Virus record (IMG/VR): IMGVR_UViG_3300030012_001663
Coordinates: 31,397 to 95,396 of that record
Source: a virus
Length of the DNA: 64,000 nucleotides
Direction: 5' to 3' (one strand)
The notes under the pieces were generated by a model. That model saw nothing but the letters and a program-made list of their open reading frames with translations. It made no database searches and had not been told where the DNA came from. Of the stretch, positions 1,191 through 16,606 are shown in pieces (positions within the stretch are counted from its first letter, which is position 1; each line of letters opens with the position of its first letter). Both the position numbers and the translations under genes were made by a program.

Positions 1191-1192
1191 AA

Positions 1193-1327: not shown

Positions 1328-1331
1328 AATT

Positions 1332-1787: not shown

Positions 1788-1984
1788 TATTTCTTTTTTC
1801 CTCTATAACCTCCACCGGCTGCTTTATATGCTTTTGCAAGCATTTGAGCTTTACGTGCTGACCACTGACCTGGTCTTCCACCTTTGCTACCCGCTTTGAT
1901 TCTATTAAACAATCTTTTACGCATTGTAGGCTTTGTATAATTACCTGATGCGTTTACTGTACTTTTTTTCTTTTTTGCTGGCAT
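1787..1984 (-). CDS. Small basic protein with GSKGGRPGQWSARKAQ motif (DUF5872 N-half-like)
   Basis: A 65-residue protein starting MPAKKKKS at 1984; the longer upstream reading would overlap the neighbouring gene. Residues 20-65 hold RLFNRIKAGSKGGRPGQWSA, then RKAQMLAKAYKAAGGGYRGKKK. This motif (a K-x-G-S-K-G-G-x-P-G-Q-W-S-A-R-K-A-Q core and a GGGY end) is known to me from small proteins of mimiviruses, phycodnaviruses and some phages annotated as DUF5872. There it is followed in the same chain by a second motif, which here is in the gene at 948-1190. It probably binds nucleic acid or is packaged in virions; this is an inference from charge. The stop overlaps the holin start. Confidence 0.85.
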   Translation of the reverse strand: MPAKKKKSTVNASGNYTKPTMRKRLFNRIKAGSKGGRPGQWSARKAQMLAKAYKAAGGGYRGKKK

Positions 1985-2003
1985 AATTATTCTTTTATAA
2001 CAT

Positions 2004-2237
2004 TTACTTGCTATGTCTCTTCTGTACTTTAAAGTTAGCAACTAAGGATGCTCCCTTGTGAGGTACAAACTTTCCAGAGTGCTTCATAAGTCTAAAACCA
2101 GATCCACTTTTCATCCAATGGAATCCTGCTGGAGCTTTTACCCCTTTAGTTCCAGTTGAACCACCTTTTTTATAGTTTACAACGCTTTTAGGCATTGTTC
2201 CTTTTTTCTTTGCTGCTTTTATTTTTTTTGCTGGCAT
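2004..2237 (-). CDS. Small basic protein of unknown function
   Basis: A 77-residue, strongly basic protein (MPAKKIKAAKKKG at the N-terminus) with a central GFHWMKSGSGFRLMKHSG and a C-terminal hydrophobic/basic section FKVQKRHSK. The central section looks like a small beta-hairpin domain flanked by disordered Lys-rich arms. The first four residues (MPAK) match the neighbouring 65-residue gene. Ten bases separate it from the upstream minor structural gene and about 20 from the next gene, so the run is one operon. No enzyme motif is visible. I have a general memory of similar proteins in marine phages but cannot name a family. Confidence 0.75.
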   Translation of the reverse strand: MPAKKIKAAKKKGTMPKSVVNYKKGGSTGTKGVKAPAGFHWMKSGSGFRLMKHSGKFVPHKGASLVANFKVQKRHSK

Positions 2238-2247
2238 ATCTATAATT

Positions 2248-2853
2248 TTATATTGCTTCTGTTCCTAGTGTTCCATCATTAGCTACAGTCAATTTATATA
2301 CTGTACCGTTTGGTGATGATAACCTAACTTCAGTTGCAGGTCCTATTGTAATTTGATGCGTATTGTTTGAAACAGTTACGCCATCTCCCTTTAATGATTT
2401 AAATTGTAAAGTCTCTCCACTCTTTTGAGCAAACACTCCTGAGCCATCACCAACTGATTGACCCCATAGGTTTTCACCAGTATTAGGCTCACCTAAAGTG
2501 TTAATCTCTAAGAAGTCTCCGTTCTCAGCTACACTAAGATTCAGAGATAAAGACTTTAACTTTCTCAAATTTACTGTACAGTCTTCTGTCTCAGGATCAA
2601 TTACTGTATCTTTATAGACACCTGCTGTACTAGTAAGGTTTCCTGTTGGTACATTTACAAATGTGCATACATCTGCAGGTACCTTTAAATCAGAAACCTT
2701 TATAAGCTTAACTGACTTATATGGAATAGGAGAAGCAACACCGGTCATATCAGGCTTCTCATGTATACCAATAGGTATAACATCATTAGACTTAGCCTTC
2801 TTAATCAGCTTACCTCTCTTTAATAAACTTAATACGTCAGTAAGAATATTCAT
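2248..2853 (-). CDS. Minor structural protein candidate
   Basis: A 201-residue protein. I chose the ATG at 2853 because it follows the preceding stop (2855) directly; the longer frame to 2934 would overlap the 83-residue gene by 80 bases. It begins MNILTDVLSLLKRGKL, resembling the start of the protein at 1-948. The middle is a mixed alpha/beta region with a Cys pair (residues ~61 and ~83). The C-terminal third is Gly/Thr/Asn-rich (SLKGDGVTVSNNTHQITIG) and ends in a short beta-repeat (YKLTVANDGTLGTEAI) as in phage decoration or fibre-tip proteins. The role in the virion is inferred from composition and neighbours. Confidence 0.75.
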   Translation of the reverse strand: MNILTDVLSLLKRGKLIKKAKSNDVIPIGIHEKPDMTGVASPIPYKSVKLIKVSDLKVPADVCTFVNVPTGNLTSTAGVYKDTVIDPETEDCTVNLRKLKSLSLNLSVAENGDFLEINTLGEPNTGENLWGQSVGDGSGVFAQKSGETLQFKSLKGDGVTVSNNTHQITIGPATEVRLSSPNGTVYKLTVANDGTLGTEAI

Positions 2854-2854
2854 T

Positions 2855-3106
2855 TTATTTCTTTTTAGATGCTGTCCATCCACCCATTTTATATGCCTGC
2901 ATTCTCTTCTTAGAACCACCGTCACCGTAAACATATCTTTTTGTCTCAGATCCGTTTCTCATTTTTTGTTCCATGTTGTCAGCCATATCCATAGATGCAC
3001 CACCATAAGTCATCTTATTTAAAAGAGACTCACCACCGTTTTTCTTATAGCCCATTGCTTTTAGTTTATTAAACAAAGCTTGAGCGCCTTTCTTTTTTTC
3101 AGCCAT
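2855..3106 (-). CDS. Small basic protein with GG motifs
   Basis: An 83-residue protein from the ATG at 3106 (MAEKKKGAQALFNKL). A TTG three codons upstream is less likely, since it would overlap the 48-residue gene that ends at 3108. It is Lys- and Gly-rich with repeated Gly-Gly sites (KKNGGESLL, TYGGASMDM, GDGGSKKRM, KMGGWTASKKK). Several Met-rich stretches suggest short helices. No enzyme motif is seen. Similar K-x-G-G or D-G-G sites occur in the large structural proteins at 33061-39622, hinting at a shared processing or binding signal. Confidence 0.75.
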   Translation of the reverse strand: MAEKKKGAQALFNKLKAMGYKKNGGESLLNKMTYGGASMDMADNMEQKMRNGSETKRYVYGDGGSKKRMQAYKMGGWTASKKK

Positions 3107-3107
3107 T

Positions 3108-3254
3108 TTATTCAATATTTAATGTTAATGTACATACTAATAAAAACAACCTTGCGGTTGTAAATGCATGCTTCTCATCAGGAAGAAAAAACTCCCATCC
3201 TAGAGCACACCTTTCATGAGGCCAATGAAAGGCTATTTCTAAATCCCAATTCAT
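3108..3254 (-). CDS. 48-residue dwarf protein, hydrophobic C-terminus
   Basis: A 48-residue gene found by reading the apparent gap. The ATG at 3254 overlaps the stop of the 44-residue gene as ATGA, and its TAA at 3110-3108 is one base before the next ATG at 3106. This tight packing on both sides supports it. The product starts MNWDLEIAFHWPHERCALGWEF, continues with an acidic loop, and ends in a hydrophobic strand-like segment (ARLFLLVCTLTLNIE). Its pattern (aromatic/His strand, L-G-[WF], charged loop, hydrophobic terminal strand) resembles two other dwarf proteins here, at 4477-4668 and 10731-10865. The function is unknown. Confidence 0.65.
   Translation of the reverse strand: MNWDLEIAFHWPHERCALGWEFFLPDEKHAFTTARLFLLVCTLTLNIE
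3141..3161 (-). terminator. Possible intrinsic terminator inside a small gene
   Basis: On the minus strand ACAACC-GCAA-GGTTGT forms a 6-bp stem closed by a GCAA (GNRA) tetraloop and is followed at once by TTTTTA. The shape fits a short intrinsic terminator or attenuator. It lies inside the coding sequence of the 48-residue gene, before its stop, so it may instead be a chance feature of the codons. Confidence 0.35.
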
Positions 3255-3385
3255 CTTCCTTGACCTCTATATTTCTTTTTGTAGTTCTTACTAAGCTTAT
3301 TAACTGATGTCTTTGTCTTAGCATGAACTCCTGGTCTCTTTTTCTTAGCGGGCTTAACGTAAGCTTTTAGTACTAATCTAGCCAT
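3251..3385 (-). CDS. 44-residue very basic protein
   Basis: A 44-residue gene too short for usual gene calls. The ATG at 3385 overlaps the stop of the AT-hook-like gene (TAATG) and its TGA overlaps the next start (ATGA). The product (MARLVLKAYVKPAKKKRPGV and then KTKTSVNKLSKNYKKKYRGQGR) is about 40% Lys/Arg with few hydrophobic residues after position 10. It could be a nucleic-acid-binding or scaffold peptide; no family is recognised. The start/stop coupling on both sides is the main evidence that it is translated. Confidence 0.65.
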   Translation of the reverse strand: MARLVLKAYVKPAKKKRPGVHAKTKTSVNKLSKNYKKKYRGQGR

Positions 3386-3633
3386 TACTTTTTCTTTCTT
3401 GGTCTACCTCTACGTTTTTTACCCTTAGCAGCATCTACTACATCACCAGCTTGATCAGCTACTTCTGAGATAGCATCTGCTACATCTTTCATTTCTTCTT
3501 TAACCCTCTTCACTCTTTGCTTAGTTGCTTTTACAACAGCAGTGGCTCTCTCATCAACTGTAGTCTTTGACCAGACCCAGTCCCATGCACTCTTTACAGA
3601 GGATTTAATTTGGTTTAATACTTTTTTAAACAT
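3385..3633 (-). CDS. Small amphipathic protein with C-terminal AT-hook-like motif
   Basis: An 82-residue protein. Residues 1-25 are amphipathic and Trp-rich (SAWDWVWSKTT). Residues 26-68 form a long heptad-like helix with alternating Lys/Arg and Ala/Val (VKATKQRVKRVKEEMKDVAD). The tail KGKKRRGRPRKKK contains the R-G-R-P core of an AT-hook, which inserts in the minor groove of AT-rich DNA, as this genome is. A role in DNA condensation or virion packaging is inferred. It precedes the other small basic genes of this operon, with a TAATG overlap to the 44-residue gene. About 55 bases separate it from the gene before it. Confidence 0.8.
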   Translation of the reverse strand: MFKKVLNQIKSSVKSAWDWVWSKTTVDERATAVVKATKQRVKRVKEEMKDVADAISEVADQAGDVVDAAKGKKRRGRPRKKK

Positions 3634-3688
3634 TTTGTTTTATTTTGGTTATATACTAAATATACAAAAATTCAATCTTTTATCCAAT

Positions 3689-4003
3689 TTATACATTTTT
3701 AAGTCTATCATTCTCTTTTTCTAAGAACTCAACTTTTACAGTTAACTCGCCAACTTCCTTTGTTAAGCTAAGTATCTGTGCTCTCATAAGATCTTTTTCT
3801 TCTGAGCTGTCTTGTAATAATTTTTCAAGTCGTTTGACTCTTTCTCTAAGATCGTCTCTGTACATGTTTTGATCATTAATTTCTCTTTCTTCTGCCCTTG
3901 CTTTGTTGCTGATGTATCTTTCGTAAAATCTCCAAGCGCCAGCTGAAAACAAAACACCTATGAGTGTTACTACTACTGTCGTAATATTATCTAAGTTCTG
4001 CAT
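3689..4003 (-). CDS. Membrane-anchored coiled-coil protein (spanin-like or holin-like)
   Basis: A 104-residue protein with one N-terminal transmembrane segment (about residues 7-25, ITTVVVTLIGVLFSAGAW) followed by a charged region and a long coiled coil (residues 50-104, with regular Leu spacing: LRERVKRLEKLLQD, LTKEVGELTVKVEFLEKEN). The topology matches inner-membrane spanins or small phage membrane proteins of lysis cassettes. It overlaps the 126-residue membrane protein by 17 bases. A similar plan is found at 7516-7890 and 9509-9790, so the phage has three TM-plus-coiled-coil proteins. The lysis role is an inference. Confidence 0.8.
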   Translation of the reverse strand: MQNLDNITTVVVTLIGVLFSAGAWRFYERYISNKARAEEREINDQNMYRDDLRERVKRLEKLLQDSSEEKDLMRAQILSLTKEVGELTVKVEFLEKENDRLKNV

Positions 4004-4367
4004 TGTTCTTCTTTCTATAGTAATGTTTAGTAATCTGATATAATATTATACCTGACATCATTATAGTAGTTAACCATATCCAGGCAAAAGGATTAATCAT
4101 AACACCTGAAAGACACAAGTAGATGTTTACAAAAACTGAAAATATGAAGGAGCCATAAGCTAAAGATTTTCTAACTCTTAAGTTATGAATGCATGTGGAT
4201 TTGATAAGGGCAAGTCCTAGAAGAATACTAGGTACAACTAAATAAAGTTTAAACCCTAAAGATAAAGTAGAAATCATTGGGAATAGGATAGCCCAAATAA
4301 ACCCCAAAATAAGTTCAAGGGGTTCAGAATCATAATAGGTAAAAATATTTACTACTTTTTTAATCAT
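3987..4367 (-). CDS. Multi-span membrane protein of unknown function
   Basis: A 126-residue protein with about four hydrophobic segments (roughly 17-37, 40-58, 68-88, 92-112) and a Lys/Arg-rich C-terminus (KHYYRKKNNAELR). It is the first gene of the leftward operon; a TAAATTTG promoter element lies about 60 bases upstream. The number of spans is unusual for a holin but possible for an antiholin or a superinfection-exclusion protein. No family is recognised. Confidence 0.8.
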   Translation of the reverse strand: MIKKVVNIFTYYDSEPLELILGFIWAILFPMISTLSLGFKLYLVVPSILLGLALIKSTCIHNLRVRKSLAYGSFIFSVFVNIYLCLSGVMINPFAWIWLTTIMMSGIILYQITKHYYRKKNNAELR

Positions 4368-4384
4368 TACAGAAATATAAACAC

Positions 4385-4392
4385 TATATTTG
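4385..4392 (+). promoter_or_regulatory. Bacteroidota -7 promoter element for the rightward genes
   Basis: TATATTTG matches the Bacteroidota -7 consensus TAnnTTTG and lies about 85 bases before the dwarf gene at 4477, in the divergent intergenic region. No clear TTG is seen at -33, so it is a partial match only. Confidence 0.35.
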
Positions 4393-4428
4393 TGACTAGG
4401 TGTTATGCTTAGTCCTATAAATAATATA

Positions 4429-4436
4429 CAAATTTA
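4429..4436 (-). promoter_or_regulatory. Bacteroidota -7 promoter element for the leftward genes
   Basis: Read on the minus strand this is TAAATTTG, which matches TAnnTTTG, and faces the 126-residue membrane gene (start 4367). No TTG is present at the expected -33 spacing. With the element at 4385 it would make two overlapping divergent transcripts. Confidence 0.35.
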
Positions 4437-4476
4437 TTTGGATATTATAAACTTAAACACTTTAAATTTTATATAT

Positions 4477-4668
4477 ATGAATGCAATAGAACAAGATGAA
4501 AGTGGATTTGGATTCCACTTTAATTTATTACCCCCAGAGAGTTTATTAGGTTTTAAAACCATCAACTGTGAAGTACGTTGTAAAGATGAAGAATGGAGAT
4601 CACTAAAAGGTCTTGAAGTAGGATTTTTGTTTTTCACTTTAACTTTTAAATATATTCCCTGGAAATAA
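4477..4668 (+). CDS. 63-residue dwarf protein, hydrophobic C-terminus
   Basis: I chose the internal ATG at 4477 (MNAIEQDESGFGFHF) because the 24 residues upstream are low-complexity Ile/Asn/Leu from AT-rich leader DNA that also holds promoter-like elements. The product has an aromatic strand (GFGFHFNLLPPESLLGF), a charged middle (VRCKDEEWRSLKG) and a hydrophobic end (LEVGFLFFTLTFKYIPWK). The plan resembles the dwarf proteins at 3108-3254 and 10731-10865. It is the first gene of the rightward block, about 100 bases before nrdB, from which it is separated by a hairpin. The function is unknown. Confidence 0.6.
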   Translation: MNAIEQDESGFGFHFNLLPPESLLGFKTINCEVRCKDEEWRSLKGLEVGFLFFTLTFKYIPWK

Positions 4669-4714
4669 TTTGTAAGGCACATCAATTTTTCTTAAATTGA
4701 ATATAGTGAATAAC

Positions 4715-4744
4715 AAGCAGTATGACCCTAGGGCTGTACTGCTT
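4715..4744 (+). terminator. Hairpin between the dwarf gene and nrdB
   Basis: AAGCAGTA (4715-4722) pairs with TACTGCTT (4737-4744) to give an 8-bp stem with a 14-base loop that holds the palindrome CCCTAGGG. No long T-run follows, so it could be a terminator, an RNA-processing site or an operator that controls nrdB. Confidence 0.5.
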
Positions 4745-4774
4745 TCTTGTCTTAACTCATAAATACTTAATAGA

Positions 4775-5755
4775 ATGAATAAAAATATCTTTGAACCACG
4801 CACTAATATCCTGCCTTATGAATACCCACAACTACTAGAGTATAAAGACGCCATAAGGCATTCTTATTGGATAGATACAGAATACAATTTTACTGAAGAC
4901 ATTAGTGACTTTATGACTAGAGTCAACTCAATGGAAAGAGAAGCAATTAAAAGGACTATGCTTGCTATTGCACAGATAGAAGTTAATGTCAAAACTTTTT
5001 GGGGTGACTTGTATAAACGTATGCCTATCACAGAAATTGGTGATGTTGGATTTACTTTTGCTGAATCAGAGGTAAGACACAAAGATGCTTATGCTAGACT
5101 TCTCAGAATACTTGGATTAGAAGAAGAGTTTAAGAACGTTATAAAAGAGCCTGCTATTGAAGGTAGGCTTAAGTACTTAAAGAAGTACTTAGATGGTACA
5201 AGATCTAGAGATAATAAAATGTATACTAAATCTGTTTTATTATTCTCTCTATTTATAGAACATGTTAGTTTATTTAGCCAGTTTCTTATCATGATGTCTT
5301 TTAACAAAGAGAAAAATATATTTAAAGGTATTTCTAATGTTGTTGAAGCTACATCTAAAGAAGAAGATATACATGGTAACTTTGGTGCTGAATTAATTAA
5401 TATTATTAAAAGTGAAAACCCTGAGTGGTTTGATGCAGAGTTTGAAGAACTAATATACTCTGCATGTAGAAAAGCATACAAAGCAGAATGTGGTATTGTT
5501 GATTGGATCTTTGAACAAGGTGAGTTAAACTTCTTACCTAAGAATACTATATTCAATTTCATAAAGAATAGATTTAATAATTCACTTAAAAAAATAGGTA
5601 TGAACCCAATCTTTGATGTGGATGATGCTATACTTATGGATACTATGTGGTTTGAGGTTGAGATTACTTCTACCAAAGAAGGAGACTTCTTCTATAAAAA
5701 GTCTATAGATTATAATAAAAAGAGTAAGAGCATCACTGTTGATGACTTATTTTAA
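4775..5755 (+). CDS. nrdB: Class I ribonucleotide reductase, small (beta) subunit
   Basis: A 326-residue radical-generating subunit that works with NrdA to reduce ribonucleotides to deoxyribonucleotides for phage DNA synthesis. Metal-ligand candidates are all present in family order: E69 (AQIEVNVKTFW), E99-x-x-H102 (ESEVRHKDAY), E162 (FIEHVSLF) and E197-x-x-H200 (KEEDIHGNF). Y106, three residues after H102, is the expected radical tyrosine (E. coli Y122). The first ligand is Glu, where E. coli has Asp84. The C-terminus (SITVDDLF) is the usual short tail that docks on NrdA. Length is normal for phage NrdB. It is 11 bases before nrdA; the order nrdB-nrdA is the reverse of the E. coli arrangement. 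Confidence 0.95.
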   Translation: MNKNIFEPRTNILPYEYPQLLEYKDAIRHSYWIDTEYNFTEDISDFMTRVNSMEREAIKRTMLAIAQIEVNVKTFWGDLYKRMPITEIGDVGFTFAESEVRHKDAYARLLRILGLEEEFKNVIKEPAIEGRLKYLKKYLDGTRSRDNKMYTKSVLLFSLFIEHVSLFSQFLIMMSFNKEKNIFKGISNVVEATSKEEDIHGNFGAELINIIKSENPEWFDAEFEELIYSACRKAYKAECGIVDWIFEQGELNFLPKNTIFNFIKNRFNNSLKKIGMNPIFDVDDAILMDTMWFEVEITSTKEGDFFYKKSIDYNKKSKSITVDDLF

Positions 5756-5766
5756 AACCAAAATAA

Positions 5767-7392
5767 ATGGAGTACACTAAATACTATTGGCTGAATGAAG
5801 ACAGCCGTAAATTTTTATCAAGAGGATATATATCAGAGGAACCAGAACAAAGAATAAAAGACATAGCAAATACTGCAGAAAAGTATTTGAATATGCCAGG
5901 CTTTGCACAGAAGTTTGAAAACTATATGTCAAAAGGTTTCTATAGTTTATCTACACCAGTATGGATAAACTTTGGTAAGCAAAAAGGTTTACCTATTAGT
6001 TGCTACGGATCAAACATAGATGATAATCTAGATAGCATACTAAATGCTGGACGTGAAATAGGCATGATGTCTAAGTATGGTGGTGGTACTAGTTGTTACT
6101 TAGGTAATATTAGACCAAGAGGATCTGAAATTAGTACAGGAGGCCATGCTGATGGTCCTGTACACTATGCTAGAATATATGATACAGTTGTTGATGTGTG
6201 TAAACAATCTGAAGCAAGGCGTGGGGCGTGTGCTGCATACTTACCTTTAGAGCACCCAGACATCATGGAGTTCTTAGATATTGGTACTGAGGGAAACCCT
6301 ATACAAAACTTACAGTATGGTGTTACTGTGACCAATAACTGGATGGAGCAGATGCGGGCTGGAGATAAAGACAAACGTAAAGTGTGGGCTAAAGTCATTC
6401 AAAGAAGAAGTGAATTTGGTTTTCCTTACATAATGTTTAAGGACAACTCTAATGATAACTCTCCTTATAAAGAGATTGGTATGGAGATCACCGCATCTAA
6501 TTTATGTTCTGAGATACAACTACCAACAGACACCTATAACTCTTTTGTTTGTTGTCTTGGTTCTATTAACCTATTACACTGGGATGAGATCCTAAAGACT
6601 GATGCAATAGAAACATATGTGTTCTTCCTTAATGCTGTTATGGATGAGTTTATCAAAAAGGCTGAAGTAAAAGCTGGACTAAAAAGAGCATATAACTTTG
6701 CTAAACAACACAGAGCTATAGGTTTAGGTGTTCTTGGATACCATAGTTTATTCCAATCAAAGCTTATTGAGTTTGAGTCACTTGCAGCTAAACAACTCAA
6801 TAATCATATATTTAAGCATTTAAAAGAAGTATCTGATAATGCATCTAGATGGTTGTATGAACACAGAGGCTACAGGTCCTTGCGTGAAGGTTTTGCAAAT
6901 ACAACACTAATGGCTATTGCGCCTACTAAATCTAGTTCATTTATACACGGTGCAGTATCTATGGGTATTGAACCAATCAAGTCCAACTACTTTATTAAAG
7001 ATCTTGCTAAATCAAAAACTGTTTATAAAAATCCTTTCTTAGAGTGTGAATTAGAAAAGTATGGATTAAATAATAAAAAGACTTGGGATAGTATACTTAA
7101 GAAAGATGGGTCTGTTCAACACTTAGACTTTCCTACTAAGGCTGTATTTAAGTCATTTGTAGAGATAACACCAAAAGAGTTAGTTCTTCAAGCGGCACAA
7201 AGACAAAAGTATATTGATCAATCACAGTCACTAAACTTAATGATACACCCTTCTGTTCCAGCAAAAGATATAAACGCTTTGTATATATATGCATATGAAG
7301 AAGGTGTAAAAACATTATACTATCAGTTTAGTCAAAACTCAGCTCAAGCATTCTCCAGAAATATCTTAGAGTGTGCAAGTTGTGAAGGCTAA
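5767..7392 (+). CDS. nrdA: Class I ribonucleotide reductase, large (alpha) subunit
   Basis: A 541-residue catalytic subunit. Active-site residues are visible: C79 (LPISCYG; E. coli C225), N245-x-C247-x-E249 (SNLCSEI; thiyl radical Cys with Asn and Glu), C262 in VCCLGSIN (E. coli C462), Y518-Y519 (LYYQFSQ; radical-transfer pair) and the C-terminal C536-x-x-C539 (ECASCEG), which is re-reduced by thioredoxin or glutaredoxin. The protein is much shorter than E. coli NrdA (about 760) and starts directly in the catalytic domain, so the ATP-cone that mediates dATP inhibition is missing. This is common in phage enzymes and would leave overall activity uninhibited. An intrinsic terminator follows 22 bases after the stop. 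Confidence 0.95.
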   Translation: MEYTKYYWLNEDSRKFLSRGYISEEPEQRIKDIANTAEKYLNMPGFAQKFENYMSKGFYSLSTPVWINFGKQKGLPISCYGSNIDDNLDSILNAGREIGMMSKYGGGTSCYLGNIRPRGSEISTGGHADGPVHYARIYDTVVDVCKQSEARRGACAAYLPLEHPDIMEFLDIGTEGNPIQNLQYGVTVTNNWMEQMRAGDKDKRKVWAKVIQRRSEFGFPYIMFKDNSNDNSPYKEIGMEITASNLCSEIQLPTDTYNSFVCCLGSINLLHWDEILKTDAIETYVFFLNAVMDEFIKKAEVKAGLKRAYNFAKQHRAIGLGVLGYHSLFQSKLIEFESLAAKQLNNHIFKHLKEVSDNASRWLYEHRGYRSLREGFANTTLMAIAPTKSSSFIHGAVSMGIEPIKSNYFIKDLAKSKTVYKNPFLECELEKYGLNNKKTWDSILKKDGSVQHLDFPTKAVFKSFVEITPKELVLQAAQRQKYIDQSQSLNLMIHPSVPAKDINALYIYAYEEGVKTLYYQFSQNSAQAFSRNILECASCEG

Positions 7393-7413
7393 TAAAATTA
7401 ATACTTGACAGAT

Positions 7414-7445
7414 AAGAACCGGTTAGAAATGGCCGGTTCTTTTTT
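7414..7445 (+). terminator. Intrinsic terminator after nrdA
   Basis: AAGAACCGG (7414-7422) and CCGGTTCTT (7433-7441) make a perfect 9-bp stem with a 10-base loop, followed by a run of T. This is a strong rho-independent terminator that closes the nrdBA unit. The remaining 70 bases before 7516 are AT-rich (TTTGTATATTATAGTATAAA) and probably hold the promoter of the next operon, but no exact TAnnTTTG is present. Confidence 0.9.
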
Positions 7446-7515
7446 GTTTACACATATTTAATTTGTATATTATAGTATAAACCAACTCAAGATTATTAAC
7501 ATAAAAATAGTAATT

Positions 7516-7890
7516 ATGAGTTTTCTTAAAGATAAAGAACTAAGAGGATACCTTGGTGCAGCCACTGTATTCTTATTAGTAATGGGTCTTCTACTCTTCT
7601 TAGCATTTTTTGAAATACCTGATACAAACAATGATATATTCAAAGTTATTGTAGGTATGCTTGTTGGCTCACTATCTGTTGTTATCTATACTTTTATAGG
7701 TAAAAACCCAGAAGAAGTTGAGTCACTTAAAGCTAAGAATGAAGCATTAGAAGATAAAGTCAGTCAGATGGTGATAGAAAAAGATAAATTAGAGCTTTTA
7801 CTCAGAGACCTACAAACAGAGGTTATTGATAAGCTATCTCTTACAGGAGAGCATTTTGCCTTTTCATCACTTGAAGAAGATGAAGAATAG
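7516..7890 (+). CDS. Two-TM protein with cytoplasmic or periplasmic coiled coil
   Basis: A 124-residue protein with two transmembrane segments (about 14-34 and 43-62) joined by a short loop (FFEIPDTNND), then a coiled coil (about 68-105, EEVESLKAKNEALEDKVSQM) and an acidic tail (SSLEEDEE). The hairpin topology with a long coiled coil fits holin-like or lysis-regulating proteins, or a membrane anchor for the envelope proteins that follow. It is first in a six-gene operon and overlaps the next gene by 11 bases. No family is recognised with certainty. Confidence 0.8.
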   Translation: MSFLKDKELRGYLGAATVFLLVMGLLLFLAFFEIPDTNNDIFKVIVGMLVGSLSVVIYTFIGKNPEEVESLKAKNEALEDKVSQMVIEKDKLELLLRDLQTEVIDKLSLTGEHFAFSSLEEDEE

Positions 7891-8272
7891 AATAAAACTT
7901 TTTACACTTGTATTTGTATTATGCAATATTATGCATGCACAGCAAATACCTGAAGATAAAAAATTACACTTTGCTGCTGGTAGTATTATAGGTGCAGCAG
8001 GTTATGTCTGGTCTTATCAAAAACATCAAGATAAAACTAGAGCAATGATAACAGGAATATGTTTAGCATTTGCAGCAGGTGTAACAAAAGAAATGTATGA
8101 CGGACAGATAAAAGGTGGGTACGTAGAACTAGGTGATATAGCCGCAACAACATTAGGAGGAATAACATGGAGTGTTACAATACCACTGTTTCAAGAAAAA
8201 AGAAAATATTATAAATTTAAACCTGATAGGAAAAAAAGAAAGCCCAAATCTAAAAGAAAGTGTGGCAGATAA
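7880..8272 (+). CDS. Exported DUF2279/YfiM-like protein
   Basis: The product starts at the ATG at 7880 (130 residues), which gives a clean signal peptide (MKNRIKLFTLVFVLCNIMHAQ). A longer frame from 7826 would lack one. The mature part has DKKLHFAAGSIIGAAGYV near the N-terminus and GVTKEMYDGQ later, then ELGDIAATTLGG. The D-K-x-x-H-F-x-x-G ... K-E-x-Y-D pattern is that of the periplasmic DUF2279/YfiM family, as I recall it. Two or three hydrophobic segments suggest membrane association. The C-terminus is Lys/Arg-rich (RKKRKPKSKRKCGR), odd for a periplasmic protein. The molecular role of the family is unknown. It overlaps the upstream gene and sits 16 bases before the next. Confidence 0.75.
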   Translation: MKNRIKLFTLVFVLCNIMHAQQIPEDKKLHFAAGSIIGAAGYVWSYQKHQDKTRAMITGICLAFAAGVTKEMYDGQIKGGYVELGDIAATTLGGITWSVTIPLFQEKRKYYKFKPDRKKRKPKSKRKCGR

Positions 8273-8288
8273 AATTAAATTAAATAAC

Positions 8289-9509
8289 ATGAAACAACTA
8301 CTTACAATTATACTAGCATTATTCTTTGTTACAGATTCTAATGCTCAATTCTTTAAAGAGTTATATAAAGACTTTTTAAAGTATGGAACCGTCTATGCTG
8401 CTGGTGATTATAGATCAGCATATGAGACATCAGATAAAAAATATTTAATTAGAACACCAGACGGTGCTGGTATATATGATGTACCTGAAGTAGTAGATGT
8501 AACGGAATACTTCCCTGCAGACTACAGATATGGTTTTGGTATCCGTAAACTTGCACGTTTTGACTATGAAAGAAAGCCAGGAAACTTTTGGACTGGAGAT
8601 CAAAATAGAGAGAGACAAAACGGATTGCTTGCACCTACCTCTGCTATAAAAGGATTTGAATATCTATTCCACTGGGAGAAAGAGAGACGCAGAGGAGAAG
8701 AATGGGACAATGAAAGATTCTTCATTAGACATACAGGTAAATATCATATTGTAAAGCTTGAGCAAAGATACCAAGGTGCATATGATTTTAACTATCAGTC
8801 TGCTGATGTAAGAGCTAGAATACCTATTGGTAAAAAGTTTGCTTTATCTTTAGGTGCTGCATATAGAACACATGAAAGAGTATATGGTGTAAACCCTTAT
8901 GAGATCTGGGTTAGCGCTTTAAATGATGATGGTTCACAAGCTAACTACTGGTATGAGCTTGCCTATGAGTATGGTTATCAGGATGCTTTCTATGCTACTA
9001 CTATTGTAAATCCACAAACCGGAGAAGAAGAAGAAATATTTGGATACTTCTGGTGGGATCCTCAAGGAAATAGAATTGCATCATCTGATTTACAATTCAG
9101 AGATGGTCCATATAAAAGATTAATATCAAAATATAATAGAGATATATTAGGAGAAACTTCACAGTTTGGTTTGGTTAGTCCTGTAGTGGGATTTGACTTT
9201 TATCATTATGATAGCAAGTTTTGGATTCACTTATATGGTACAGCATACTTACCTTATCACAAGTATGTCAAAGGAGATAAAGATGACTATGGTAGAGTAC
9301 CTTTATCTTATCTATTCAGAAACAGTTGGGATCAGTATGGTCTAGCTGATGCAGCAAAAGGAGAGCAATGGTGGGATTATCAAGGTGGTGCTAATATTGG
9401 AATCAAAATTGGTAAGTCAATAGGAATCTTTGCTGACGCAGAATATACTAGAATGTGGGATTCAGAGTTTTTTATAACATCATTTGGAATAAATTATACA
9501 TTTAGATAA
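8289..9509 (+). CDS. Outer-membrane beta-barrel candidate
   Basis: A 406-residue protein. The ATG at 8289 gives a good signal peptide (MKQLLTIILALFFVTDSNAQ). The mature chain is rich in Tyr, Trp, Gly and alternating hydrophobic strands (for example KFALSLGAAYRTHERVYG, GGANIGIKIGKSIGIFADAE). It ends in SFGINYTFR, close to the terminal aromatic strand of outer-membrane barrels (usually a final Phe). A phage-made barrel could change the host surface, for example by replacing or masking a receptor. Alternatively it could be a secreted beta-rich protein. It is followed by a TAATG overlap with the next gene. I recognise no named family. Confidence 0.75.
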   Translation: MKQLLTIILALFFVTDSNAQFFKELYKDFLKYGTVYAAGDYRSAYETSDKKYLIRTPDGAGIYDVPEVVDVTEYFPADYRYGFGIRKLARFDYERKPGNFWTGDQNRERQNGLLAPTSAIKGFEYLFHWEKERRRGEEWDNERFFIRHTGKYHIVKLEQRYQGAYDFNYQSADVRARIPIGKKFALSLGAAYRTHERVYGVNPYEIWVSALNDDGSQANYWYELAYEYGYQDAFYATTIVNPQTGEEEEIFGYFWWDPQGNRIASSDLQFRDGPYKRLISKYNRDILGETSQFGLVSPVVGFDFYHYDSKFWIHLYGTAYLPYHKYVKGDKDDYGRVPLSYLFRNSWDQYGLADAAKGEQWWDYQGGANIGIKIGKSIGIFADAEYTRMWDSEFFITSFGINYTFR

Positions 9510-9790
9510 TGGCAAAGCAATTAGGAGAAGATACTAAGGTTACACTTGATCTTAAAACATTAGGAATGATTGGTGCTGGGATAGCGTCACTAGTGGGTAT
9601 GTGGTTTGCTCTGCAATCAGATATTCAAGAAGCTAAAGAACTACCAGCTCCTGTTATTGATAGAATTGAATATGACCTTAAAGATGAGTTAGTGCGTCAA
9701 ACTATAATGGACACACAAGATGACGTTGATGATATCAAAGATAAACTAGATAAGATAGATCAACGTTTGTATGAACTACAACAAAGGTAG
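9509..9790 (+). CDS. Single-TM coiled-coil protein (spanin- or anchor-like)
   Basis: A 93-residue protein that starts in the stop codon of the beta-barrel gene (TAATG). Residues 1-15 are polar (GEDTKVTLDLKT), 17-35 form one transmembrane helix (GMIGAGIASLVGMWFALQS), and residues 40-93 are a highly charged coiled coil (DTQDDVDDIKDKLDKIDQRL). This plan resembles inner-membrane spanins and small proteins I recall from marine flavobacterial phages. It could bridge the inner membrane to the exported proteins beside it. Lysis or exclusion function is not proven. Confidence 0.8.
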   Translation: MAKQLGEDTKVTLDLKTLGMIGAGIASLVGMWFALQSDIQEAKELPAPVIDRIEYDLKDELVRQTIMDTQDDVDDIKDKLDKIDQRLYELQQR

Positions 9791-9792
9791 AT

Positions 9793-10191
9793 ATGAAAAA
9801 CATTATAACTTTACTACTATTACTACTACCGTTTATTTCTTTTTCACAAGAGTGGGTTGATGATCAATCAATTGATAAAGTATTAAACTCAAAGAGTGCT
9901 TTTGGTGATGATGAGTCTAAGATAATAGTTATAGAATTTTGGGCTAAGTTTAATGAAGCAAATGCTTTTAGTGACTGGTCTAAAATTAATGAAGATTATT
10001 ACAGAGTAGATATTGGTAAAGCACCTAGTGCAAAAAAGAAATATAGAGTAAGAATGGCCCCTACCATAATTATATTTAAAGATGGAGTGGCTGAGGAAAG
10101 CTTCAAGGCAGGTCTAGATTTAGAATGTCCTGTAAGCTTGGAAGAATTGCAAGAAGCAATTAAAGAGGTTAAAACCGCGGGAGCATTTTAA
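9793..10191 (+). CDS. Exported thioredoxin-fold protein without active cysteines
   Basis: A 132-residue protein with a signal peptide (MKNIITLLLLLLPFISFSQ). The thioredoxin fold shows in IIVIEFWAKFNEANAF (where W-C-x-x-C is expected) and in RMAPTIIIFKDG, which carries the cis-proline (P90). At the two catalytic Cys positions the residues are N54 and N57, so the protein cannot do dithiol exchange. The single Cys (about residue 111) lies elsewhere. Such redox-dead folds act as binding or chaperone modules. In this operon it may bind or mask an envelope or redox partner. It lies two bases after the preceding gene. Confidence 0.8.
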   Translation: MKNIITLLLLLLPFISFSQEWVDDQSIDKVLNSKSAFGDDESKIIVIEFWAKFNEANAFSDWSKINEDYYRVDIGKAPSAKKKYRVRMAPTIIIFKDGVAEESFKAGLDLECPVSLEELQEAIKEVKTAGAF

Positions 10192-10200
10192 ATTAAAAAA

Positions 10201-10734
10201 ATGAAAAAATTATTACTAATATTATTGTGTTTCTTTGTTTTTACAAGTTGTGAAAAAGAAGAAATATTACCTTCAATTGAAATGAGTTTAGATGGACAAT
10301 CATTTGATCCTTATGATAGATACGCACAAATCAAAACATTTGCTGGTAAAAAAAATGAAGCTGATACAGTAAAGAAAATCTTTATTCTTTATCTACAAGT
10401 AGATGATGGAGAACCAAGATTAGATAGACAACACTTTGCTTTATACTGTTTGGATTCAGATGCAAATGATGATAACAAACTATTAGACTTAGGTAATTAC
10501 ACTTGGGAAAACCCAGATAATAAGTTTGCTGGTGTTGAGATACCTGGTGATCAAGAGTATGTTGTTTGGAATAGCGTGGATGTTTTAAGTGTGAGCAACG
10601 GTATTTCTTTGCAGGCACAAGGAGAGTTTTTTAATCCTTATGTTCAAAGGAATATGACTGTTGACTTAAGACTAGAAAATTGGCCAATAGGTTTAGATGT
10701 AGATGCTACTCCTTATGGGTACTTGCTAGACTAG
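10201..10734 (+). CDS. Lipoprotein with Flavobacteria-type surface-export signal
   Basis: A 177-residue protein with a type II signal peptide, MKKLLLILLCFFVFTSC; the lipidated Cys is residue 17. It continues E-K-E-E, which matches the K-(D/E)2 lipoprotein export signal described in Capnocytophaga, so the protein is predicted to reach the outer face of the outer membrane. The mature part is a beta-rich domain (SIEMSLDGQSFDPYDRY; LGNYTWENPDNKFAGVEI) of unknown family, ending VDATPYGYLLD. As the last gene of the operon, its stop (10732-10734) overlaps the stop of the opposite-strand dwarf gene. A role in superinfection exclusion is a reasonable inference. Confidence 0.8.
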   Translation: MKKLLLILLCFFVFTSCEKEEILPSIEMSLDGQSFDPYDRYAQIKTFAGKKNEADTVKKIFILYLQVDDGEPRLDRQHFALYCLDSDANDDNKLLDLGNYTWENPDNKFAGVEIPGDQEYVVWNSVDVLSVSNGISLQAQGEFFNPYVQRNMTVDLRLENWPIGLDVDATPYGYLLD

Positions 10735-10865
10735 CCCCATCTCCAAGAAAGACAGAATACTATCATATAGAGATTGAACTCATTCCAATCATCTTCATGT
10801 TCTTTTGGCATATACTGTATTCCTACTAATGGTCCGTGTGCTAATGCTATTATTTTAAAATCCAT
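10731..10865 (-). CDS. 44-residue dwarf protein at the end of the virion operon
   Basis: A gene too short for usual gene calling. The ATG at 10865 overlaps the stop of the 1913-residue gene (TAATG) and the TAG overlaps the stop of the opposite-strand lipoprotein gene. The product reads MDFKIIALAHGPLVGIQYMP, an acidic loop (KEHEDDWNE) and a hydrophobic end (FNLYMIVFCLSWRWG). The plan resembles the dwarf proteins at 3108-3254 and 4477-4668. It fills most of what would otherwise be an apparent 130-base gap. The function is unknown. Confidence 0.65.
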   Translation of the reverse strand: MDFKIIALAHGPLVGIQYMPKEHEDDWNEFNLYMIVFCLSWRWG

Positions 10866-13800
10866 TAATCTATATAAAAGTCTTGTCTCTTAAGGAAACC
10901 TTCCCATTTTTGTATGGTGTATAATGCAGGTATAGCATCAAACCATTCTTTTCTCATCTTGAGCATTCCTTTCTTAGGTCTATTCTGATAATATAACTGA
11001 GAGTTATTCATCATGTTATATCTCTCCATTGGAGATATTGTAAACCTAGCTTCATTATCTGTTGCTCTTGTTAAGAATGCTCCAGTGTTTGCAAGAGTAT
11101 ATCTTGTAGTTGCTTGTAGTGCTTCACCTATAGCTCCTAATGTTCTTGTTGATGCAATTGGATCACTAATCATTTCTCCCATTTGTACAAGACCATCTGG
11201 CACTACCGGCATAAACATTACAAGTTCACTGTAGGTTCTATCTGTTTGATAAATAGCCAAGTTCTTTAGTCTCTTAAGTGTTGGGTTATCATCATCGTCA
11301 TCATCAAATAATCCAAGGAGTATATTCTTAAGCATTAATGTTGCTAACACCATAGATATATCAGCCATGGTTCTTTGGAAACCAAATATTTTATTTTCTA
11401 TTTTCTGATCTACTTGCTCACTTACTTCACCATAACCTCTCTCCTTCATAAAGCCTTCTTTATATGTAGCTACATTTAAATTAAGCTTTCCAAGTTGTTT
11501 AGTTATATAGGCCATCATTTCCCACCATGACTTATATCTACCTTCCATCCATCCTAGATTCTCATCAAAGTATTCTCTCTGGAATCTTGCTCTGATAGCA
11601 GGTGCAACCCATTTGTGGAATTGTGCAAGAAGTTGTCCCAAGTTTCTTCTCTGGATAACCATTCTATCTTCTCTAGCATAGTTACCATGAATTTGCTTAT
11701 TAACTTCACGGATCTTCATTCTTGTATCAAACCTAAAGTTTTCTGTAAACTCTTTCTTTATTTCTTTAGGATTCTCTATTCCTTTTGTCTCAACAATAGT
11801 ATCATAACCTTCTTTTAGCTTTGCAGTTTGTGTTTTAGAATCAAACTCATAAGCATCAAAAAGATTAAGTCTTTCTCCTGTAGAACTGTTTTCTATTATA
11901 GTATCCATTAATAAAGCCATACCAACAGTAGTCTGTACTTTATATTCCGCTGCATCCTGTAATGAATAACCAAATGCTTTTATATTATCTAATGAGAAAA
12001 AGTTTGTGTTTAGAGCATCATTACCTTGTATATTCTCACGGATATCAGCATCTGCATCCATCATTTGAAATTGCATAGCTAATGCTTCCCATTTAGTCAT
12101 GGGTAATCTTGGGTCATATCTTTGCCCAGCACCTCTTGATGCAGCGTATGCTGTTCTTTTAATCATACTTTGTCCAATCTGACCTAAGTAAAATTCTTTA
12201 TTTGCTCTGAGATAGCTTGATCTAGTATAGAATCTACCACCTAATGCTTCTATTGTATTGTTGACAGATGCAATTGCTAAGTTGTTTAAGTTACCTATAG
12301 CGTTGAATGCTACATAAGATAAAGAAGAATATGATATTAATTGTTGAACTGCTTTATCTGCTACTGTTCTATTAATTTCATCTGAGTTGTAATAAACCAT
12401 TTTAAACCAAGCCTTGACTCTTTTTACAGTATTAGATTCTTCTTGTGTCTCTGAACCTTTTTTACCCACCATTCTAAGAGCAGCATTACCTACTGCATCA
12501 GCACCTTTTGATACAGCTCTTCTTAGAGTTCCTGTTTTAGTATCTGCATCATAATAAGTTCTATCTTCAACAATAGTTTTTATAGCTTTCAAAGTATCAC
12601 TTATATCATCCATCTGCTGATAGTTTTCAGCCATTGCTGTAAACTTAATTAAGCTATCAGCAAAGTCCATACTAATCTCATCAGCACCAGGTTTACCAAG
12701 AAGGGTTTGAACCTCAGCTTTTGCTATACCTATTTCTTTTTCATACTGATATTTTTTAATCTTACCTTGTTTGTATTGTAATTTTATAGCTTCAACTTTT
12801 TCTTCAGCAGCTTTTAGTTTTTTCTCATCTGCAGGTCTACCTACAAATAGTATAGGTAGAGAGTCAATTAAGTTTCCATTATCATCAACTGATACTCTTC
12901 TAAATTTACTAGTTGTTGAAAAACCTTTTTTGAGCCAGTCTGCTTTATTACGTATCCATGCTTCAAAACCTAATTTAGTTCCTGCTTGATTCTTAGCATG
13001 AGATATCATCTTACCTCTCACTAATGGTGCTCTACCTAACATCTGATCTCTAACAGCCATAGGTAGTTTTTTAAGCATATCATCATATCTCTCTGTATAT
13101 GCCATATAGAAATCTCTTTGTGCTCTACCCAGTGCATCTGTAGGATTCATTATCTTGTTATACTTTTCACTAGTCATAACTTTACCACTACGTGTGGTTT
13201 CTTTAGCTACTCTGTATTTTCTTTTTGGGTAGTAAGAAGTACCTGGAATAAGTCTACCAGTTGGTTCTCCATTCTTTTTTTCCATGAATAGAGCGTCTTC
13301 TTTCTGATCCTGATATTTTAATCTAAACTCTGCTTGCTCTTCTGGAGAAACACCGGGTTTAAATATCCAATATCCATGAGCACCTGATGGTACAAACGTT
13401 TGATATCTTGCTCTTATATCTTTCCACTCTTGTGTATATTCATGAAACTCTCCGTCTACAAGTTTACCGTCTTCTATAGTCTCTGCTCTCCAAAAATCAG
13501 CATATGCTTGTTTCTTTTGATATAAATCTAAGTTATGTTTAATATCAGCTGGGTCAGCTGTTTCTAGATCATCAATCATTACATACTCAATAGGATCACC
13601 ATTATCATACTTTAAAGCATCTCTAAGTCTATCCGCTTGCAAGTAATATTGTTGACCTAATTTTCTAATTGTAAGTCCTGTAAATCTACCATCCTCATCC
13701 ATTTCAGCCATAAACTCATAAATCTTTCTTGGATCTTGAGTACCTGTAAGTTTTGCTAGTCTATTACCCAGACTTCTAATTTCTGCATTTAATGCTTCAG

Positions 13801-16606
13801 CTCTTTCCTGTCCTCTAAGTCTGGCTCTACTCCATTCTTTTGCAATTAATGCTGATAAAGTATCAGGAGATGTAGCAAGATCTCTTGTTTCAAGATCCCA
13901 CCAAGTTATATCCTGCTCTTCTACTAACATTTTATTTAGTTCTTCTTCTGTAAAATCTCTATTAGAATTTTCTCTAACATATTCTCTTACATAGTCTATA
14001 ACAGCTTCTTTAATAAGTCCTGTCTCATAGTTATCTCCTTGAACTTCTCTTAGCTTTTGCTCTAATGTAAGTAATAGAGATGCCTCAGTCTTGTTTAGTA
14101 TACCACTATCTTTGATAGATTTTAAACCAAGGAATGTAGAAGCAAACTTGTCAAAGTTCAATGCATATGTAATAAACTCTTTCTTATTAAAGTTAGCTGG
14201 GTCTTTTATATAGTCAATAAAAGAATTAATTTCTTTAATAGAATCTCTAAGTAGGTTTGCATATACACTACCCATAAGTTGTGCATCACCTTCTAGCGGA
14301 TCTAATGCAAGTTCAATTGCAGCTATAGCATTATTTGTATATGTCAAAGCAACATCATTTGTCTTATCAACAAACAATTGCTTTTTATAATTTTCTATAG
14401 CTTCTCTTCTTTTCTTTAAATCTGTGTGATGATTTTTAAGAACAGTCTTAAGTGACTCATATCTATTATCATCAAACTGTGGACTAGTTGGATAATCAAC
14501 GTTGTCTTCTAAGAAGTTAAGATCATCTACAGGATTAAACATTTCTCCTTTAGATACATCTTGATCAATTTTTTCTTTGGCTACTGTATCTACGTTTAGT
14601 GGAATTAGCTTATCTACAATATGATTATTGTAAGATGGTTTATGTGTAACCATACCATCCATTCTATAAGAACCATTAAACTTTTGGTTAGTACCTTTAC
14701 CTGTAATATCTACATGTATATGAAAAGTTTGTGCACCATAGTCTGATTGATCTACAGTATAACCCATGTTCTCAAACATTCTTCTATACATGTTTACTTG
14801 AGCACCATGCTTACCCCTAGTAGATAACTTCTCTACACCTTTATCTTTTAGTAAGCTATCATCTTGTAAAGCCCACTCTCTTTTGTATTGTTCTTTTGCT
14901 GTGCTTGCATATGCAGTCTTACTGGTTTTAAGATCTATAATCTTTATCTCACCTGTTGGTGTAATACCAACAATATCTGCTGTACCAGCAATTTTTGTTT
15001 TCTTATCATATACAACAACCTGTGGTATAAATACTGTACCGTCAGCTTTTAATCCAGTTATAAATGCAGATAAGTCTGCAAAAGCTTTTTCTACTAATGC
15101 TTTATCATCTTTTAATACACTTTTAGAGTCTGCTTGCAAGTCTTGGAATACTTGGTCAAGGGTTTTATCTGAGAGAATACCATCTACTATAGAGTCAAAA
15201 TCATTACCTATTGCAATGTTTAGTGCAACTTCTTGCTCGTTAAACATCTTACCATTAATGGCTGTAGTAGCTGAAGTGTATTGATCATTAAGGTCTGTTA
15301 TATCATAGTATGTATGATTCTCTTCATTAAGTACAACTATACTATCACCCGTCTTTGTATCTTGTGGGCCTGCAGATAATGAATCTATTGTATCACTCTG
15401 CTTCATGGCAATATTAAAAAGCCTATCAATTATAGCTCTCTGTGCTGTATTAGCCTGAGCTTTGACATGGTTTACTATCTTTTGTAATCTATCAGATAGT
15501 GCATATCTTACTTTTCTATCTACAACCTTTTGTATTTCAAAAGTTATATCAGAGGTGTTAAGCATTCTTGCAATGTCTGACATTGTGGTGCTAGGTTTTA
15601 TCTGACTTGCTTTTAACACAGGTAAACCTGCATCTGTAACATACTTATGTAAGTCACTGATAATATTAAAGAACCATTTAATTATATCTGCTATCTTATC
15701 TAAGTAGCTTTTTGTAGGTGTATTCTCATACTCTTGTCTGAAATGTCTTACAAGTGCTTGAGTTACAAGCTCTAAGTTTCTGTGTGTTTCATTAAAACCA
15801 AGCTTGTCTTTGTATGATGCTTCTATCTGTTGTGCTAAGACAGGAAAGTTTTCTTTTGTCTCAGCTAACAATGAGTCAAATAACTCTGGGTTCTCTGCTT
15901 TGATTGCATCTACAAATGGGTGTAACACCTCTTCTACTGCTGTATTAGCATCTACTCTACCGTCTATAAGTACAGCTTTACCATTTACATAAAATGATTT
16001 TATATCATCAAACTTTACTTTTGACTTCTGCCCTGCTGGTAGAGAGTTATAATATTCTTTTGCTGCACTGACTGACATCACCTGAACATCTATCTGAGGA
16101 AACATTCTCTCAAGATGCACTATAATATCTGTAGTTTTTAAATCACCTCTTGTTTGTGGTAGGATATCTTGTATACTAAATAAATTATCTCTTACAATAA
16201 TCTTTGCTGATCTTGTTGTCTTTAAGATCTGTACTGTGTCTTGTGGAATATTATTTATCTCAAGATATCTTCTGATCTTTTTTATATTCTTATCTAGAAT
16301 ATTTTTATCTGCTACAAAACTCAGTCCGTCAGTTGCATTTACATAGTTGTAACCTTTATATTTTTTTGTAACAAGCTTCTTAGATATAAGATTAGAAATA
16401 ACAGACTCTGCAAACTCTCTCTTTCTTACTGATAGAGCAGTCTGGTTGTCATCAACAAAATCCATTGCTTCCTGTATAGAAGGTATAGTGTCTGTATTAT
16501 TAAGATCTTGATAAGCATTTATCAAGTTATCTGTAACAATATTAGACCCAAACTCTTCATAGAGTGCTTTGTATTCTGCTGTATTTCTATTTGGACACTT
16601 TGCCAT
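10865..16606 (-). CDS. 1913-residue virion/ejection protein with PD-(D/E)XK nuclease domain
   Basis: The protein starts MAKCPNRNTAEYKALYEEFG, an N-terminus I recall from giant proteins of gut crAss-like phages. Around residues 223-233 the sequence TAVEEVLHPFV lines up with the zincin H-E-x-x-H-P pattern, but the first His is replaced (EEVLH), so this protease-like domain is probably inactive. Residues 430-570 form a RecB/Cas4-type PD-(D/E)XK nuclease: GTADIVG with D544, then IIDLKTSK with D558 and K560. The rest is mostly helical, with a DDDDDD stretch near residue 1767. The gene is four bases after the giant polymerase gene, so they are one unit. A virion protein injected with the genome is the likely role; the nuclease may act on host DNA or on packaging ends. 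Confidence 0.85.
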   Translation of the reverse strand: MAKCPNRNTAEYKALYEEFGSNIVTDNLINAYQDLNNTDTIPSIQEAMDFVDDNQTALSVRKREFAESVISNLISKKLVTKKYKGYNYVNATDGLSFVADKNILDKNIKKIRRYLEINNIPQDTVQILKTTRSAKIIVRDNLFSIQDILPQTRGDLKTTDIIVHLERMFPQIDVQVMSVSAAKEYYNSLPAGQKSKVKFDDIKSFYVNGKAVLIDGRVDANTAVEEVLHPFVDAIKAENPELFDSLLAETKENFPVLAQQIEASYKDKLGFNETHRNLELVTQALVRHFRQEYENTPTKSYLDKIADIIKWFFNIISDLHKYVTDAGLPVLKASQIKPSTTMSDIARMLNTSDITFEIQKVVDRKVRYALSDRLQKIVNHVKAQANTAQRAIIDRLFNIAMKQSDTIDSLSAGPQDTKTGDSIVVLNEENHTYYDITDLNDQYTSATTAINGKMFNEQEVALNIAIGNDFDSIVDGILSDKTLDQVFQDLQADSKSVLKDDKALVEKAFADLSAFITGLKADGTVFIPQVVVYDKKTKIAGTADIVGITPTGEIKIIDLKTSKTAYASTAKEQYKREWALQDDSLLKDKGVEKLSTRGKHGAQVNMYRRMFENMGYTVDQSDYGAQTFHIHVDITGKGTNQKFNGSYRMDGMVTHKPSYNNHIVDKLIPLNVDTVAKEKIDQDVSKGEMFNPVDDLNFLEDNVDYPTSPQFDDNRYESLKTVLKNHHTDLKKRREAIENYKKQLFVDKTNDVALTYTNNAIAAIELALDPLEGDAQLMGSVYANLLRDSIKEINSFIDYIKDPANFNKKEFITYALNFDKFASTFLGLKSIKDSGILNKTEASLLLTLEQKLREVQGDNYETGLIKEAVIDYVREYVRENSNRDFTEEELNKMLVEEQDITWWDLETRDLATSPDTLSALIAKEWSRARLRGQERAEALNAEIRSLGNRLAKLTGTQDPRKIYEFMAEMDEDGRFTGLTIRKLGQQYYLQADRLRDALKYDNGDPIEYVMIDDLETADPADIKHNLDLYQKKQAYADFWRAETIEDGKLVDGEFHEYTQEWKDIRARYQTFVPSGAHGYWIFKPGVSPEEQAEFRLKYQDQKEDALFMEKKNGEPTGRLIPGTSYYPKRKYRVAKETTRSGKVMTSEKYNKIMNPTDALGRAQRDFYMAYTERYDDMLKKLPMAVRDQMLGRAPLVRGKMISHAKNQAGTKLGFEAWIRNKADWLKKGFSTTSKFRRVSVDDNGNLIDSLPILFVGRPADEKKLKAAEEKVEAIKLQYKQGKIKKYQYEKEIGIAKAEVQTLLGKPGADEISMDFADSLIKFTAMAENYQQMDDISDTLKAIKTIVEDRTYYDADTKTGTLRRAVSKGADAVGNAALRMVGKKGSETQEESNTVKRVKAWFKMVYYNSDEINRTVADKAVQQLISYSSLSYVAFNAIGNLNNLAIASVNNTIEALGGRFYTRSSYLRANKEFYLGQIGQSMIKRTAYAASRGAGQRYDPRLPMTKWEALAMQFQMMDADADIRENIQGNDALNTNFFSLDNIKAFGYSLQDAAEYKVQTTVGMALLMDTIIENSSTGERLNLFDAYEFDSKTQTAKLKEGYDTIVETKGIENPKEIKKEFTENFRFDTRMKIREVNKQIHGNYAREDRMVIQRRNLGQLLAQFHKWVAPAIRARFQREYFDENLGWMEGRYKSWWEMMAYITKQLGKLNLNVATYKEGFMKERGYGEVSEQVDQKIENKIFGFQRTMADISMVLATLMLKNILLGLFDDDDDDNPTLKRLKNLAIYQTDRTYSELVMFMPVVPDGLVQMGEMISDPIASTRTLGAIGEALQATTRYTLANTGAFLTRATDNEARFTISPMERYNMMNNSQLYYQNRPKKGMLKMRKEWFDAIPALYTIQKWEGFLKRQDFYID

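Follow-up and report, generated by a model that had tools for sequence, protein, structure and literature searches.

The closest described counterparts of the locus analysed here are the two-component spanins, such as lambda Rz/Rz1 (PMC6139136), in which a type II inner-membrane coiled coil is combined with a second, outer-membrane component and the genes have a holin and an endolysin as neighbours. About 13% of the phages surveyed by Kongari et al. 2018 (PMC6139136) were without a recognisable spanin, and the authors asked if there is a different way through the outer membrane; for the spanin-less phages they raised, without showing it, the possibility that 'an OMP could act as an o-spanin'. 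The locus studied here contains a set of three genes, g3-g4-g5, that resembles the spanins in its predicted type II inner-membrane coiled coil (g4), in its second outer-membrane component and in its holin and endolysin neighbours, and a small lipoprotein follows g5 in five relatives that are devoid of a barrel. However, the outer-membrane part of the triad is mostly a beta-barrel (g3), an extra periplasmic thioredoxin-fold protein (g5) is always present, and none of the g4 matches to the spanin families in PHROG was convincing. Since a barrel, not a lipoprotein, is its constant outer-membrane part, the triad was not filed as a spanin, though it may work like the known kind.

Two further systems were compared with single members of the triad. 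With the thioredoxins (PF00085), g5 shares the fold, the FWAxF strand, the loop before the active site and the invariant cis-proline, but it never carries CxxC, mostly NxxN being found instead, and it is exported and encoded in phage lysis cassettes. Phage outer-membrane barrels such as lambda Lom resemble g3 in being phage-encoded and exported; g3 would differ from them in being much longer, conserved throughout, tied to two partner genes and nearly absent from bacterial genomes.

Organization of the six-gene unit

The virus record comprises 95,396 bases, and all coordinates without a locus label refer to the window, that is, the whole stretch of 64,000 nt that was analysed (Table 1). Re-reading of the ORFs located the six-gene run where the original prediction had placed it, at 7516-10734, with six back-to-back ORFs, all on the + strand, forming a separate unit 3' of the nrdA terminator. 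The two TM/coiled-coil proteins that had been announced were recovered as g1, with a two-TM hairpin, and g4, with one TM helix. The starts of g2 and g3 were corrected to the ATG at 7880 and 8289, respectively, so that g1/g2 overlap by 11 bp and g3/g4 by 1 bp, while gaps of 2 bp and 9 bp separate g4/g5 and g5/g6. A promoter-like match (TTTACA-18-TATAGT) lies at 7447-7476, in a region where such matches are not above the shuffled count.

Table 1. Features of the six-gene unit and the holin of the phage (window positions).
Feature	Position	Strand	Description
g1	7516-7890	+	124 aa, two-TM hairpin and C-terminal coiled coil; optional satellite
g2	7880-8272	+	130 aa, signal peptide, DKKLHFxAG motif; optional satellite
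g3	8289-9509	+	406 aa, exported outer-membrane beta-barrel (predicted)
g4	9509-9790	+	93 aa, single TM helix at the N-terminus, with ELPxP linker and coiled coil
g5	9793-10191	+	132 aa, thioredoxin fold, exported; NxxN (N54, N57) in place of CxxC
g6	10201-10734	+	177 aa, lipoprotein (TSC-EKEE) with probable surface exposure; optional satellite
Intrinsic terminator	7414-7441	+	strong, with 12-bp stem and T tail; parts nrdA from the six-gene unit
Holin of the window phage	1332-1787	-	PHROG 3427 lysis/holin, 3.9e-18; outside the operon, in a separate - strand region

The triad of the window adjoins nrdAB, whereas the genes for the holin and the virion proteins are on the other strand; in its immediate neighbourhood, no gene for an endolysin was detected. 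The - strand genes of the record include those for tail-fibre, SLT-transglycosylase and virion proteins and one holin. Two ORFs of 4,426 and 1,913 aa on this strand (16611-29891 and 10865-16606, respectively) encode giant proteins with no Pfam/PHROG match. A second TM/coiled-coil gene, at 3689-4003 (-) near the holin, gave weak PHROG matches to 'hol-like chemotaxis' (1.8e-8) and to an Rz-like spanin (0.0027), and no lipoprotein partner for it was found nearby.

Conservation of the triad among relatives

The conserved core of the unit is g3-g4-g5, a set of three common to hundreds of uncultured marine viruses. The IMG/VR search with g3 yielded 68 loci, and the profile-based searches yielded at least 559 and at least 587 relatives, the g3 relatives being located on at least 587 IMG/VR contigs. 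Locus content was read by ORF calling together with family HMMs. At all 99 loci whose flanks were long enough, both g4 and g5 were detected near g3, at distances that rarely exceeded about 1 kb, and the next most frequent families beside g3 reached 57/99 and below. All three genes were present in 176/176 barrel-seeded, 59/59 long-g5-seeded and 59/63 g4-seeded loci, seed sets that overlap in contigs and are not independent; they represent 206 distinct barrel sequences and 210 of g5. With B, T and X denoting the barrel g3, g4 and g5, respectively, the gene order at the 71 loci with distinct barrels was BTX in 61, TXB in seven and XBT in three, always on one strand. No natural fusions among g3, g4 and g5 were encountered. 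In about 20 loci, a giant late protein, reaching some 3,000 aa at most, immediately precedes the barrel.

The tightest pair of the triad is g4-g5. Flanks were available for 191 distinct g4 sequences: g5 lies no more than 1 kb away in every case and the barrel within 4 kb in 155. The distance correlation was 0.82 (r) for g4 versus g5, but only 0.41 for the barrel versus either. A search for short g5 returned 80 loci, 79 of which contain g4 immediately 5' of g5, with a 4-bp overlap in 69/79. Duplication of g4-g5 as a unit flanking the barrel, with diverged copies, was observed in L050-L055, L423 and L429. Four g4-seeded loci (L274, L287, L288 and L296) are barrel-less, and a search of the complete records, which measure up to 106.6 kb and may be fragmentary, revealed no convincing barrel, the only match being a weak one of 14 bits over about 50 residues in the record of L274.

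The remaining genes g1, g2 and g6 are accessory to the triad, being found near 12, 15 and 21 of the 99 barrel loci, respectively, and the position of g6 relative to the triad varies. Because these genes come and go among the loci, there is no fixed six-part machine, and the envelope-spanning apparatus of six products put forward in the original prediction shrinks to three fixed genes. Scattering of the genes or lack of export had been named as the outcome that would speak against that proposal; g1, g2 and g6 are indeed intermittent, whereas g3-g4-g5 stay linked throughout and encode exported or membrane proteins. No confident family was assigned to g1 by Pfam, PHROG or PADLOC. The description of g2 as DUF2279-like gained no confirmation from Pfam, its best match being PHROG 26616 'lipoprotein' (4.2e-7) instead, and some g2 relatives are lipoproteins. 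The lipoprotein assignment of g6 holds, as its lipobox was confirmed and is that of the sole credible lipoprotein in window positions 1-11000 on both strands, with surface exposure being probable.

Predicted features of g3, g4 and g5

The signal peptide of g3 ends in AQ, and a simple signal-peptide test is passed by 202/209 relatives of g3 and 261/276 relatives of g5, with the Gln after the cleavage site conserved in both families. The AlphaFold2 model of g3 is a barrel of 12-14 strands with moderate confidence (pLDDT 71.5), for which Foldseek retrieved only generic outer-membrane barrels from the PDB (TM-scores about 0.15-0.31 by query, too low for assigning a barrel type), together with the viral model A0A516LKJ4, a clear g3 relative (25% identity, E 2e-24). 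No match was obtained with the g3 profile against PDB sequences. The proposed beta-barrel with a signal peptide is supported by the model, the structure search and the signal-peptide test. Strong conservation extends over the full length of g3, with about 90 invariant columns among 40 sequences, and the many invariant His/Glu/Arg prompted us to consider an outer-membrane enzyme (phospholipase or deacylase), for which no structural match was found.

From the positive-inside rule, g4 appears to have an i-spanin-like type II topology with the N-terminus inside: the family has one predicted TM, and for 92% of 270 sequences the Lys/Arg count of the N side equals or exceeds that of the C side. The N-terminal TM, periplasmic coiled coil and N-in/C-out orientation of an inner-membrane spanin subunit are all predicted for g4, with a short periplasmic part of about 57 aa, and no confident Pfam family was found for it. 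A g4 paralogue with a conserved FRVKWPRGEMGALPDDAKQDLRIEYLQ-type motif was also detected (L003:9620-9952, L014:2338-2661, L030:2403-2708 and L076:8581-8904), and it sometimes adjoins g6.

The exported thioredoxin fold without cysteines, as originally described for g5, was borne out by a match to Pfam Thioredoxin (1.3e-5), by matches of the g5 profile to PDB thioredoxins down to about 1e-10, and by an AlphaFold2 model (pLDDT 85.4) for which Foldseek retrieved thioredoxins with TM-scores up to 0.81 (2cvk, by target length). The active-site CGPC of thioredoxin aligns with NEAN in g5. Among 276 aligned sequences, N54 is present in 227, N57 in 252 and the cis-proline P90 in all 276, and CxxC occurs in none of the 210 + 79 sequences inspected. 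The modelled g5 combines the thioredoxin fold and cis-proline with a missing CxxC redox site; NxxN mostly stands in its place, and redox activity of g5 at this position is precluded.

Lysis genes and lipoproteins near the triad

An endolysin or holin lies ≤4 kb from g4 in 158/191 distinct sequences (83%), so the vicinity to a holin/endolysin cassette that is expected of spanins is found in most of the family but not in the window, where the holin lies on the opposite strand. The lysis families include c3 (Peptidase_M15_3 above the Pfam cut-off; PHROG 894 endolysin, 2.5e-31), H10 (GTA_holin_3TM / PHROG 3427 holin, 2.2e-18), which is the same family as the window holin, c23 (amidase with a PG-binding domain) and c77 (PHROG 33083 endolysin, 8.5e-16). 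In L049, L057 and L060, the order g4-g5-barrel-M15 endolysin-holin is contiguous, with most junctions being 4-bp overlaps, and in the 79 short-g5 cassettes g4-g5 are usually followed by the M15 endolysin and the holin. The nearest relatives of the window (L076, L077, L086, L089 and L093) harbor, in this order, nrdA, the barrel, g4, g5 and two genes for small 2TM proteins, after which c77 or DUF5675 is found. The latter two genes alternate in one slot in near relatives, as in L086:6698-7312 (c77) and L077:8549-9016 (DUF5675).

In place of the outer-membrane lipoprotein subunit of the spanins, the barrel was found as the constant outer-membrane gene. A lipoprotein of o-spanin size (65 aa mature) follows g5 in the barrel-less L377, L378, L380, L384 and L392; only 8/68 of the barrel-less g4-g5 cassettes searched contain a lipoprotein, most having no other outer-membrane gene nearby, and about 40/132 barrel cassettes also carry one according to a simple lipobox test. 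No embedded Rz1-like lipoproteins were found in other frames in most barrel-less cassettes, nor near the holin of the window.

Functional interpretation

The linkage, the genomic context and the export signals make a role of g3-g4-g5 in lysis likely, and since the triad usually adjoins the genes for bursting the host, it probably represents an undescribed way in which the bacterial outer membrane is broken as infection ends. The more specific reading, to which we assign a probability of about 0.5, is that the triad is a lysis module disrupting the outer membrane, in which g4-g5 would form the inner and periplasmic half and the barrel the outer half of a spanin-like bridge. This proposal is based on the topology and on the five barrel-less loci with a lipoprotein after g5. 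Under it, g3, g4 and g5 would bind one another, the barrel would replace the o-spanin lipoprotein, in line with the idea raised in PMC6139136, and disruption of the outer membrane would result. In such a bridge, g4 would be anchored to the inner membrane, its coiled coil projecting into the periplasm, and would bind g5, a redox-dead thioredoxin fold serving as a protein-binding adaptor, which would itself bind the outer-membrane barrel g3. With the inner membrane opened by the holin and the peptidoglycan cleared by the endolysin, the bridge would then pull or fuse the two membranes, as spanins do. The place of the triad in the window phage, the barrel-less cassettes with no visible outer-membrane gene, the barrel cassettes with a lipoprotein, the short g4, the barrel coupling of 0.41 and the second TM/coiled-coil gene count against the bridge.

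Some of these observations would also fit a role of g4-g5 in regulating lysis or helping the endolysin, either antiholin-like or by positioning the endolysin, and not in bridging the membranes, with the barrel as a separate, frequent outer-membrane factor: many small phages have g4-g5 directly 5' of the M15 endolysin and holin with no outer-membrane gene nearby, the pair is more tightly coupled with each other than the barrel is with either, and g4 is short for an i-spanin. We consider this explanation rather unlikely, as the barrel-seeded loci keep g4-g5 without exception, even with permuted order, and in five loci g5 is followed by a lipoprotein of o-spanin size. A virion or assembly role, for instance with g4-g5 as a chaperone set for an outer-membrane or virion-associated barrel, might account for the barrels lying directly 3' of a giant late protein, but it is highly improbable, because signal peptides and a TM helix are unexpected for virion parts and g4-g5 persists without any barrel.

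Of the two functions suggested in the original prediction, lysis was favored by the nearby endolysins and holins, while no positive evidence emerged for superinfection exclusion. Exclusion or envelope remodelling, by which the barrel and its partners would alter the surface of the infected cell and block the adsorption or DNA ejection of other phages, would suit the combination of a barrel with the surface lipoprotein g6 and the location of the unit downstream of nrdAB, not among late virion genes, in the window and its nearest relatives. It is nevertheless improbable, given the full-length conservation of the barrel without arms-race variable loops, the tight coupling to endolysin and holin, the lack of a PADLOC match for g2-g6 and the near-absence from bacterial genomes, the last of which also argues that the barrel set is not a prophage moron.

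Distribution and significance

No credible relative was detected when three barrel, three g4 and three g5 sequences were compared with 50,697 phage records by tblastn, and the PHROG matches of g3, g4 and g5 were only weak. The GTDB genomes contributed four MAG contigs only, with mixed taxon labels, which are probably stray phage contigs. The triad was observed on L072, L073 and L075, binned as Woesearchaeota, Alphaproteobacteria and Maricaulis MAGs, which are probably misbinned phage contigs. A literature search, whose coverage was without most subscription papers and preprints, returned no description of the module.

Tentatively, a tripartite complex of inner-membrane coiled coil, redox-dead NxxN thioredoxin adaptor and outer-membrane barrel could represent a further class of outer-membrane disruption in phage lysis that is widespread in uncultured marine viruses and unknown from isolates. 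The module offers a concrete and widespread candidate for the spanin-less route through the outer membrane. If this reading is true, the triad could serve as a marker by which the lysis genes of uncultured marine viruses are recognised, and g5 would be a case of the thioredoxin fold being reused without its chemistry.
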